The notes under the pieces are model-generated. The model was not told the origin of the DNA. It saw nothing but the letters and a program-made list of their open reading frames with translations, and ran no database searches. Positions 3,720 to 37,287 of a stretch of DNA of 64,000 nucleotides are shown here, piece by piece. How positions within the stretch are numbered: position 1 is the stretch's first letter; each line of letters begins with the position of its first letter. Origin of the DNA: Halobellus inordinatus (GTDB lineage Archaea; Halobacteriota; Halobacteria; Halobacteriales; Haloferacaceae); contig NZ_JANHAV010000001.1 in assembly GCF_024464655.1 (NCBI RefSeq), forward strand, positions 620,001 to 684,000, written 5' to 3'. The position numbers and the translations under genes were made by a program.

Positions 3720-3899
3720 TGGGGCCGGAGGGATTTGAACCCCCGATCGACTGATATCTCCGGTACGCGCCTCGGTACTCCAGAGGGTCGTCGTCGCGAA
3801 CCGATGATCAGTCGGCCGCTCGGTATATCAGTCTGGAGTGTCGTCACCGGGCGCCAAGCCTCTGGAGTCAGTCGCCATGCCGGGCTTGGCCACGGCCCC
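3720..3899 (-). tRNA. tRNA-Trp (CCA) with intron
   Basis: On the minus strand a complete cloverleaf is readable. The acceptor stem is GGGGCCG paired with CGGCCCC, with discriminator A. The D arm is GCCAAGCCCGGCATGGC. The anticodon stem is ACTGA/TCAGT with loop CTCCAGA (anticodon CCA). The T arm is GGGGG-TTCAAAT-CCCTC. Exon 1 is 3899-3862 (38 nt) and exon 2 is 3755-3720 (36 nt), with a 106-nt intron after position 37. No CCA is encoded. The haloarchaeal tRNA-Trp gene is known to carry an intron of about this size at this position, removed by the tRNA splicing endonuclease at a bulge-helix-bulge. Confidence 0.95.
3756..3861 (-). ncRNA. tRNA-Trp intron, box C/D-like guide RNA
   Basis: The intron contains a box C-like GGTGACGA near its 5' part, an internal ACTGATA (box D'-like) and TGATCAT (C'-like). 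It also holds a stretch CTCTGGAGT that is antisense to the anticodon region of its own tRNA. In Haloferax volcanii the equivalent intron guides 2'-O-methylation of C34 and U39 of tRNA-Trp. The elements seen here fit that role, though they diverge from consensus. Boundaries follow from the tRNA fold. Confidence 0.72.
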
Positions 3900-34779: not shown

Positions 34780-35085
34780 CTACACGTCGGCGTCGTCGGG
34801 AATCTCTTCTACAGGTCGGTCCTCGCTGGCGACGCCGAAGTAGCCGGGTTCGTCGCCGACGGGATCGTTGATCACCAACTCTTCGGCGTGCGTCATCAGC
34901 CACGGGATCGTCCACGCGACGACGCGGTCTTCGGTGTCGGCGTCGAGTTCGACGTCCGGATCGAGCCCCTGCAACAGCCGTGCGATCTCCGGGACCGTGT
35001 ACATCAACTCGGAGTCGAGAACCTCGGTCGGTTCGTAGAGGCGGTACGGATACAGCGTGTCGAAATCGTCCTTCGGCTTGGGCAT
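34780..35085 (-). CDS. DUF5827 family protein
   Basis: 101 residues from ATG 35085. The sequence PKPKDDFDTLYPYRLYEP, then MYTVPEIARLLQGLDPD and WTIPWLMTHAEELV, match the small soluble haloarchaeal family I know as DUF5827. No motif suggests a catalytic role. Convergent with the metallo-hydrolase gene, 36 bp apart, and divergent from folP. Confidence 0.78.
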   Translation of the reverse strand: MPKPKDDFDTLYPYRLYEPTEVLDSELMYTVPEIARLLQGLDPDVELDADTEDRVVAWTIPWLMTHAEELVINDPVGDEPGYFGVASEDRPVEEIPDDADV

Positions 35086-35171
35086 ACGACCCCGTTCTCG
35101 CTGCCGCGTCAAAAGTCCCGCCGAGAAGCCGCTGCCAGACAGTATATGTGTCTCCCGTCCCTCCTCAGAGT

Positions 35172-36401
35172 ATGCGAACTGTGGACGCCGCCGGTCTGCC
35201 GATCGGGGACGAGCACCCGCCGCGGATTATGGGAGTCCTGAACGTCTCGAAGGAGTCGCCCTACGACCCGAGCGTCTTCGACGACCCGGGTGAAGCCGCC
35301 GCCTACGTCGACGAGGAACTCATCGATCAGGGCGCAGACATCGTCGACGTCGGCCTCGAATCCGCGAACAAGCGCTTCGAGGTGCTCTCCGCCGAGCAGG
35401 AACTCGAACGGCTCGACACCGCCGTCGAGACGCTCGAAAGCGTCTCCGGCGACGCCGTCTTCTCGATCGAGACGCGCTATCACGAGGTCGCCGACGCAGC
35501 ACTCTCGCGCGGCTTCGATATGGTCAACGACATCTGCGGCTTCGCCGACCCGGAAATGCCGCGCGTCTGTGCGGACTACGACGTCGCGGTCGCGAAGATG
35601 GCGTCGCCGCCGGACCTAGAGCGTCCGGGCGCGATCGAGGAGGTCGACGACATCTACGACGCGCTCTCGCTGAACGGCTTCACCGACAAGACGCTCGTCG
35701 ACCCGGCCTTCGGCGGCTGGTCCGAGGAGAAGACGCTCGCAGACGACCGCGAGACGTTCCGCCGGCTCCGGGAGTTCCGCGGGCTCGGCTACCCGATCCT
35801 CGTCTCGATCAACCGCAAGAACTTCCTCCGCTCGATTGCGGGCCGCTCGACCGAGGAAGCTCTCCCTGTCTCGCTGGCGGCGACGTCGATGGCCGTCGAG
35901 CGCGGCGCGCACGTGATCCGAACGCACGACGTCACGGAGACGCGCGACGCCGCGCTGATCGGGCACGAGTTCGCCCGCGACCGGGTCCGCGAACGCGACG
36001 CCGGCGACGTTTCGATCGAGGAGCTCGACGTGACGACGCCCCGCGAGGCCGAACGCCACCTCGACCGGGTGGGCGTCGCCGACGCCGAAGCAGTGTCGAC
36101 CGATTCCGTCGTGCGGGTGTTCGAACTCGACAGCCTCTCCGACGCCGACGTGGGCGCGCTCTCGACGGCGGCCGCCGAGCGGGGCGCGACTGTGGTTTCG
36201 GGCGCGACAGTCGACGACGGTCAGTCCGTGCTCGCCGACGGGAACGGAACTCCCGGCGCCACTGACCGCGACGGGGAGACGGGACGGACTGTCCTCCTCT
36301 TCGGCACGGTCGGCGCGCTTGCGGGAATCGCCGGCGCGCTCACGGGCGGCACGGACGGGCTCACCGGGGCGCTCGAAACGATCGCCGAACACATAGCATA
36401 A
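35172..36401 (+). CDS. folP: dihydropteroate synthase homologue
   Basis: 409 residues from ATG 35172. The TIM-barrel pterin-binding domain occupies residues 15-270: MGVLNVSKESPYDPS (DHPS signature 1), GADIVDVGLESAN, FDMVNDICGFADP, TLVDPAFGGW, and SINRKNF, with the late RTHDVTETRDA. A C-terminal extension of ~130 residues ends in a hydrophobic Gly/Ala-rich segment (GTVGALAGIAGALTGG) that may lie at the membrane. It would condense the pterin and pABA units of folate or a modified folate. The next gene makes the pterin pyrophosphate, so the two act in sequence. Confidence 0.85.
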   Translation: MRTVDAAGLPIGDEHPPRIMGVLNVSKESPYDPSVFDDPGEAAAYVDEELIDQGADIVDVGLESANKRFEVLSAEQELERLDTAVETLESVSGDAVFSIETRYHEVADAALSRGFDMVNDICGFADPEMPRVCADYDVAVAKMASPPDLERPGAIEEVDDIYDALSLNGFTDKTLVDPAFGGWSEEKTLADDRETFRRLREFRGLGYPILVSINRKNFLRSIAGRSTEEALPVSLAATSMAVERGAHVIRTHDVTETRDAALIGHEFARDRVRERDAGDVSIEELDVTTPREAERHLDRVGVADAEAVSTDSVVRVFELDSLSDADVGALSTAAAERGATVVSGATVDDGQSVLADGNGTPGATDRDGETGRTVLLFGTVGALAGIAGALTGGTDGLTGALETIAEHIA

Positions 36402-36504
36402 ATGAGACAACGTTCCGTGTGGGCTGACCGAACCGACGGCAGACGCGCGTCAGACGCCGTGTGTCTTCCCGTCAGACGCGTCAGAACACGGGAAAGCTTA
36501 TGAC

Positions 36505-36595
36505 GGACCGATTGAAACCGGTCCACTGGAAGCCGGAAGGGCACGCGGGTAGGGGTACTTGGTGCCATTCCGGCTCGTACCGTAACGCTCGGGAG
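36505..36595 (+). promoter_or_regulatory. structured 5' leader upstream of the mptE-like gene
   Basis: Three hairpins precede the ATG at 36604: GGACCG/CGGTCC (36505-36524); a long stem AGCCGGAAgGGCAC / GTGCCaTTCCGGCT (36531-36575, 13 pairs with one mismatch, 17-nt loop); and GCTC/GAGC just before the start. A TATA-like gcttatg at about 36496-36502 would place transcription start near 36525. Such a structured leader is unusual in haloarchaea, where most mRNAs are leaderless. Confidence 0.5.
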
Positions 36596-36603
36596 CGATA
36601 GCT

Positions 36604-37287
36604 ATGCGCTTCGAAACCTGGGAGCCGATCTACGAATCGATCCTGACCGACTTCGGGTATCCACGCGACGGCGACGAGCGCGCCCGCGACGTGCTCGCCG
36701 CGTATGCGACGCCGTTCGATTTCGACCGACTGGACTACGACGGCGAGGTCGTCGCCGTCGTCGGTGCCGCGCCGTCACTTCCAGAGGCAGTCGACCGCGT
36801 CGCCGACGCCGACAGGGTCGTCGCCGCCTCGACGGCCGCGGACGTCGTCCGCGACGCCGGCTACGACGTCGACCTCTTCGTCACGGACCTCGACAAGAAC
36901 CCTGAAACAGCCCGTGAGCTGACCAAGGCGGGGACACCCGTCGCCGCACACGCCCACGGCGACAACGTCCCGCTCGTAGAGGAGTGGGCGCCGCAGTTGG
37001 CACACGAGCACGTCGTCGCGACGACGCAGGCGGCTCCGACTGACGCCGTCTACAACTTCGGCGGCTTCACCGACGGCGACCGCGCGGCGTTCATCGCGGA
37101 CGAATTCGGCGCAGCGGAACTCCGCTTCGTCGGGTGGGACTTCGACGACCCGAGCGTCTCACCGTCGAAGGCGAAGAAACTCCGCTGGGCCGAGCGGCTG
37201 CTCCACCTGCTCGAACGTCGACGGGACGAGCGCTTCGCGGTTCTCGACGGCCGCCGCGACGACATCGATCCGCTCGCGCTCTCGTAG
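36604..37287 (+). CDS. mptE: 6-hydroxymethyl-7,8-dihydropterin pyrophosphokinase, MptE-like
   Basis: 227 residues. The DUF115-type fold of archaeal MptE, with the Rossmann-like start VVAVVGAAPSLPEAVD and signature segments DLFVTDLDKNP, HAHGDN and YNFGGFTDGDRAAFIA. It transfers pyrophosphate from ATP to hydroxymethyl-dihydropterin in archaea, replacing bacterial FolK, and supplies the substrate of the preceding FolP homologue. The two genes are about 200 bp apart; that gap carries a strongly folded leader. Confidence 0.88.
   Translation: MRFETWEPIYESILTDFGYPRDGDERARDVLAAYATPFDFDRLDYDGEVVAVVGAAPSLPEAVDRVADADRVVAASTAADVVRDAGYDVDLFVTDLDKNPETARELTKAGTPVAAHAHGDNVPLVEEWAPQLAHEHVVATTQAAPTDAVYNFGGFTDGDRAAFIADEFGAAELRFVGWDFDDPSVSPSKAKKLRWAERLLHLLERRRDERFAVLDGRRDDIDPLALS

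Follow-up and report, generated by a model that had tools for sequence, protein, structure and literature searches.

In a 64,000-nucleotide stretch of Halobellus inordinatus DNA (the window), the interval between the genes for dihydropteroate synthase and MptE would hold the gene for a small RNA, driven from its own promoter. Our main reading, to which we give a probability of about 0.82 from sequence comparison, is that its product acts in trans: its hairpin loop, GGGUAGGGGUAC, would base-pair with GUACCCCUACCC at the 5' end of the S-layer glycoprotein mRNA, which is encoded elsewhere. We infer both the expression of this RNA and the pairing of the two RNAs in the cell. The small RNA would then probably control the S-layer protein and not the pterin gene beside which it lies.

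A conserved hairpin with a putative promoter of its own

The gene upstream of the hairpin (34980-36401, (+) strand) encodes a dihydropteroate synthase (TIGR01496, PF00809) whose domain begins at residue 83, so that the real start probably lies further downstream. The gene downstream (36604-37287, (+) strand) encodes an MptE-like 6-hydroxymethylpterin diphosphokinase (PF01973, E 8e-15) and is not the proposed target. Elsewhere in the window, a 180-nt Rfam tRNA match (3720-3899, (-) strand; 45.6 bits) that ARAGORN missed is probably a tRNA with a long intron.

An earlier note on this DNA had described a 13-pair stem at 36531-36575, including GGCAC/GTGCC, between two smaller hairpins, and re-examination of the sequence and its fold bore out the stem as drawn. 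On the (+) strand, its lower helix (helix 1) joins the 5' arm AGCCGGAA (36531-36538) to the 3' arm TTCCGGCT (36568-36575), and its upper helix (helix 2) joins GGCAC (36540-36544) to GTGCC (36562-36566), with a G.A mismatch (36539.36567) below the upper helix; both helices are supported by the fold and by compensatory changes. Folding of 36496-36604 gave a minimum free energy of -48.2 kcal/mol, where shuffled sequences averaged -36.9 (z = -3.28), and 0 of 200 of them were equally stable. The two flanking hairpins could both be located, but both fall in stretches that vary among relatives: the upstream one (36505-36524) lies 5' of the likely transcription start, and the downstream one is weak. 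The stem encloses the loop and putative seed (36547-36558, (+) strand; GGGUAGGGGUAC, that is GGGTAGGGGTAC), which is near-invariant, complementary to S-layer leaders and coevolving with them. Part of it is able to form a GUA-GGGG-UAC mini-hairpin.

A DNA search with 36490-36604 found matches in 38 of 60 relatives. We then used a covariance model, R1, built from 49 of 95 sequences; the other types were left out because a first alignment (A1) had misplaced the upper helix of the Natrialbaceae, with 9 pairs only, and all types were afterwards realigned to R1. The model matches the window at 36525-36582 on the (+) strand, which we take as the small-RNA core (82.3 bits, E 7.2e-19, the window sequence being itself a member of the model), and the transcript is predicted to start near 36524-36527. 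Of the 293 haloarchaeal genomes of the order, 233 have an R1 match, mostly a single one, as do 220 of the 255 near-complete ones. Weak matches on the (-) strand (7 of 83), as expected of a hairpin, were taken out before pairs were counted. We rejected transcription from the other strand, since the conserved promoter reads on the (+) strand.

Compensatory change in the stem, a check that the earlier note had proposed, was found at every modelled pair (12 of 12 changed on both sides) in 76 hairpins (75 distinct) aligned to R1, an alignment that leans to the model. In this set 93.3% of cells pair, and the covariation score is 0.462 against 0.166 in shuffled alignments, 0 of 500 of which scored as high. 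A plain MAFFT alignment of 49 sequences still shows compensatory changes in 10 of the 12 pairs. Such base-pair changes are those of a structured non-coding RNA, and the hairpin looks like an old RNA of the haloarchaeal order.

In Rfam 15 no family exceeded its gathering cut-off, and the only match was a sub-threshold one to RF02354 on the opposite strand (23.8 bits against a cut-off of 80). A box H/ACA or C/D guide RNA is extremely improbable. Some clades do have ACA after the stem (CCCACAACA), but the box is not general and is absent in Halobellus; the stem offers a 1x1 or small internal loop and no pseudouridylation pocket, and apart from that opposite-strand match Rfam gave nothing at the gathering score or at E up to 1. 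The H/ACA candidate was rejected on the internal pocket and the ACA box.

The TATA-like element that the earlier note had placed before the stem is present and belongs to the most conserved parts of the region. It reads GGGAAAGCTTATGAC (36490-36504) within a BRE/TATA promoter element of the small RNA, ACGGGAAAGCTTATGAC (36488-36504, (+) strand); its GAAA and CTTAT are identical in all 80 distinct aligned relatives, and the 22 bases between GAAA.CTTAT and the stem are variable. From TATA to loop the spacing is 53-56 nt (53.4 +/- 0.6 nt; 71 of 80 loci), whereas from loop to mptE it is 117.8 +/- 69.8 nt (range 46-338 nt; 71 of 80 named loci). Since the distance to the promoter is constant and that to mptE is not, the hairpin appears to be a unit of its own and not mainly an mptE leader.

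The earlier note had left open a cis-regulatory mptE leader, possibly sensing a pterin, or an independent small RNA, and it is the second that gains from the constant promoter spacing and from second copies, with other stems, that lie away from mptE in two genomes (G035 and G231; L203, L204). A cis-acting riboswitch or attenuator of mptE we consider very unlikely. It would account for an RNA that is nearly always 5' of mptE on the same strand and for the window, where no clear mptE TATA was found between hairpin and ATG, but it would require a constant relation to the regulated gene, and the distance of 46-338 nt and the copies elsewhere do not provide one. Moreover, 20 of 80 loci show a TATA-like box of mptE itself at -36 to -20, compared with 17 of 320 background windows, and Haloarcula-like clades have a separate one downstream of the hairpin. 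No Rfam riboswitch matches the RNA, and its invariant part is complementary to, and coevolves with, another mRNA. We found nothing in favour of pterin sensing.

The strict linkage to mptE is nevertheless unexplained by a role in trans and counts against the small RNA reading. The linkage would fit an RNA with two roles, acting free on the S-layer mRNA and, in clades such as Halobellus and Haloferax, also serving through read-through as the 5' leader of mptE; in the window's genus, where mptE itself lacks a clear TATA, such read-through may occur. L066, L075 and the window speak for this arrangement by their short distances from hairpin to mptE and the lack of an obvious mptE TATA, but a scan for bacterial-type signals gave no evidence of a terminator or of read-through either way, and we regard the double role as rather unlikely.

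The loop and its complement in S-layer leaders

Among the hairpins the stems vary freely while the loop GGGTAGGGGTAC hardly changes and is the most conserved part. Exact copies of it are found in 151 of 195 genomes, with several per genome in one family, and a reversed control pattern is rarer. These copies are of two classes: hairpins with other stems and promoters, and the reverse complement, GTACCCCTACCC, in S-layer leaders. With a threshold of 6 for the stem, a survey of 47 sites classed 16 as hairpins, 8 as S-layer leaders and 23 as others; with the threshold loosened afterwards to 4 pairs plus an upstream TATA-like word, the classes numbered 33, 8 and 6.

The genome of the window itself has another hairpin with this loop, longer than the first and preceded by a different promoter, ACACAAGAYTTTTA (L183, G000:C21:31538-31573). 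Its type has relatives at L206, L209 and L205, and occurs in three Halobellus-like genomes and in G022; in the Halobellus genomes a T-rich stretch follows it. Family f17 has more hairpin RNAs with this loop, on the stems ACCTCG/CGAGGT, GTCTCG/CGAGAC and ACACCGC/GCGGTGT (L308, L311, L312, L315, L316, L317, L318, L321, L323 and L224-L238), and their promoters resemble those of S-layer genes.

In S-layer glycoprotein genes the loop complement follows a TATA element by about 25 nt and precedes the start codon by about 115 nt. The genome that contains the window has a predicted S-layer leader beginning with GTACCCCTACCAATGGTGGCACC, whose target GUACCCCUACCA (L273) matches the loop at 11 of 12 nt. 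The gene concerned (L273:615-2990, - strand) is of S-layer type, with NF041335 (E 7e-145, below the curated cut-off), TIGR04207 and PGF-CTERM, and lies on contig G000:C17; the RNA is encoded on G000:C11, in trans to its proposed target. We could read comparable leaders in many other genomes. Of 293 genomes, 149 matched a pattern that joins the S-layer promoter to CCCCTRYC, and 0 matched the reversed control of this pattern; since the promoter is part of the pattern, genes of other kinds are not detectable by it. All 30 loci fetched from these matches carry an S-layer type ORF with a signal peptide (27 by script, 3 by eye), and TIGR04207 was found in 8 of 8 proteins tested, in one below the curated cut-off.

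In archaeal promoters the +1 position follows from the TATA spacing, and by this spacing the element is predicted to lie at or next to +1 of the S-layer mRNA. In 27 folded leaders, with a small mononucleotide shuffle as control, the first 12 nt are mostly unpaired in many but not all. Of the 35 rows of the leader search, L008, L058, L074, L118, L121, L123 and L296 were set aside by eye as opposite strands of small RNA loci or ORFs not of S-layer type. The leader alignment (A3) has 28 + 5 rows, its CCCCT core being fixed by the search pattern, and an alignment of 24 leaders has a closing helix, GGUGGCA/UGUCGCC, directly after the 5' tail. The target would be a 5' tail that is largely single-stranded, with a closed stem-loop domain after it and then an A-rich linker leading to the start codon. 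S-layer leaders with five Cs, GTACCCCCTACC, occur in G065, G196 and G218 (L376, L378, L379) and would bulge against a four-G loop.

The direction of the interaction could also be the reverse, with an abundant S-layer mRNA serving as a sponge that titrates the small RNA from other targets. In Haloquadratum, S-layer mRNA is among the most abundant, csg being the most highly expressed gene according to an excerpt of one study (PMC5496347), but no other conserved class of target was found, all 30 fetched loci being of S-layer type under a pattern that itself contains the S-layer promoter. We consider a sponge improbable.

The presence and absence of RNA and leader agree in part. Of the 233 genomes that have the RNA, 141 contain a leader of the target type, as do 8 of the 60 that lack it, in counts that ignore phylogeny; seven of these 8 belong to f17 and hold exact loop words beyond the leader. 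Three genomes without the RNA (G017, G318, G314) have S-layer leaders without the element. The strict leader pattern is missing from 92 of the 233 RNA-bearing genomes, many of them in f7, where S-layer promoters deviate and where at least G041 has the element (L247). In one genome, G168, two S-layer leaders are of the target type, but R1 has no match there and the loop is not present as an exact copy.

Joint change of loop and leader

Variants of the loop are matched by variants of the target: GGGCAGGGG occurs with CCCCUGCCC, and GGAUAGGGG with CCCCUAUCC. The first case was seen by eye in G026, with the loop GGATAGGGG and the leader CCCCTATCC. We tabulated the pairing in 32 genomes (39 leaders) in which both RNAs could be compared; the table omits the f17 genomes (consensus as read) and the genomes with motif-less leaders (G319, G179, G120, G243, G083), and since only genomes with a CCCCT-core leader enter it, the core is given and the test concerns positions 3, 9 and 10. 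Loop 4 and leader 9 form U-A in 27 genomes and C-G in 5, with no other pair in the 32. Loop 3 and leader 10 change from G-C to A-U in G026, and loop 10 and leader 3 form C-G in G174, G287 and G207 and are mismatched in G026. As the five genomes with C at loop 4 may represent one event, we claim only at least three kinds of compensatory change. When leaders were permuted among the 32 genomes, ignoring phylogeny, the observed pairing was reached in 0 of 20000 permutations.

Predictions of the leaders, in two sets, the first comprising the four for G320, G321, G319 and G322, were recorded before the leaders were seen. Overall they were confirmed in 5 genomes and failed in 1, and in 2 no leader was met. 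In the Salinibaculum genome G320 (L103; loop GGGCAGGGG) both S-layer type genes carry the predicted CCCCTGCCC. The ORF of one of them (L301, G320:C1:1186008) stops after 90 aa, reflecting a disrupted gene or a sequence error. The leaders of G262, G248, G287 and G207 read CCCCTGCC, as predicted, and that of G287 follows its loop at the next position too (GTGCCCC for loop GGGGCA). G174 keeps the C-G pair of loop 10 and leader 3 in both genes, and G096, G106 and G127 keep the pairing by G.U. The prediction for G321 (L080) was wrong, its loop AGG.. facing CCC where CCT had been predicted, which leaves one terminal mismatch. Leader searches in G319 (L131) and G179 found none; in G322 (L073) the strict pattern matched no S-layer gene, and its apparent twin G120 gave no R2 match and no leader. 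The best leader matches of G243, a weak one, and of G083 are without the motif.

Predicted duplex energies of matched pairs are about -22 to -26 kcal/mol (-18 in G026); two mismatched duplexes came to about -13 to -14 kcal/mol, and one swapped pair held by G.U to -23.7. Complementarity to the target is kept by compensatory change, with G321 and loop 10 of G026 as exceptions. In the genus g43 (G155, G216, G220, G260, G263, G300) a second leader of the S-layer promoter type, CCCCTGCC, stands beside CCCCTACC, and the mptE-linked loop GGGTAGGGG pairs with the CCCCTGCC leader by G.U only.

These matched variants also bear on whether the loop could be a protein-binding motif common to many hairpins, to which the S-layer complement would be secondary. 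The same loop on unrelated stems and the GUA-GGGG-UAC mini-hairpin would suit such a motif, but where the loop varies, the S-layer leaders of that genome carry the complementary bases, and a protein site by itself leaves this unaccounted for; such a motif seems to us a very slim prospect.

Possible mechanism and known systems

Under the reading of a trans-acting small RNA, the site would be at the extreme 5' end of the mRNA, more than 100 nt from the start codon, and we would guess on that account that the life span of the mRNA is a likelier point of control than ribosome binding. Pairing may protect the 5' end from a 5'-to-3' exonuclease of the RNase J type, which we put forward tentatively, at somewhat less than even odds. 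Repression or decay caused by pairing comes slightly behind protection, and for what remains our guess is titration or localisation. In H. volcanii vesicles, as an excerpt of one study reports, S-layer mRNA is the most enriched transcript, in the form of small fragments, and RNase J is present (PMC10927574). This would be compatible with a special handling of the 5' end and is no proof about the RNA. A wider and doubtful conjecture is an order-wide control of the cell wall by RNA-RNA contacts: unrelated hairpin genes, some with S-layer-like promoters, would share one loop that kisses the 5' terminus of S-layer type mRNAs as a removable cap against 5' decay, in a coevolved 12-nt code that switches or balances S-layer paralogues.

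The targets of archaeal small RNAs are difficult to predict, and the haloarchaeal small RNAs described so far are mostly species-specific. If our main reading is true, the target of a small RNA can be read from sequence across an order, on the gene of the main cell-wall protein; the natural variants of loop and leader are built-in genetic tests, and the control of a leadered archaeal mRNA from its 5' end becomes directly testable in Haloferax. According to excerpts of a H. volcanii survey, 22 of 27 small RNAs had no relatives in other haloarchaea, and H225.2R, hts359 and hts10 are listed as conserved (PMC3956466). The present RNA may correspond to a published H. volcanii small RNA; a search for such a counterpart by way of HVO_2519/2520 gave no result. 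Our search of the open-access literature, which included the letters of loop and target, found no paper linking a small RNA to S-layer mRNA. Base-pairing small RNAs are a known kind; an order-wide loop code directed at the 5' terminus of an mRNA is, as far as our search reached, new.

Elements of the proposed interaction are found in other systems. For the protection reading alone, miR-122 offers an analogy: it binds hepatitis C RNA at the extreme 5' end and protects that RNA, as the haloarchaeal RNA hypothetically would, although no Argonaute-type partner is implied for the latter. Bacterial plasmids have kissing antisense RNAs whose recognition starts from a G/C-rich hairpin loop, a feature that the haloarchaeal RNA would share; they are encoded in cis, opposite their target, while the haloarchaeal RNA is encoded at a locus other than that of its target. 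Among archaea, sRNA162 of Methanosarcina mazei is reportedly a trans-encoded small RNA with an mRNA target, and so is SHOxi of Haloferax volcanii, according to an excerpt of PMC12482152. Like both of these, the RNA described here would be an intergenic small RNA that pairs with an mRNA encoded elsewhere. It differs from them in its seed, a hairpin loop that almost the entire order has conserved, and in its target, which comprises the predicted first dozen nucleotides for a single gene type, with seed and target coevolving.
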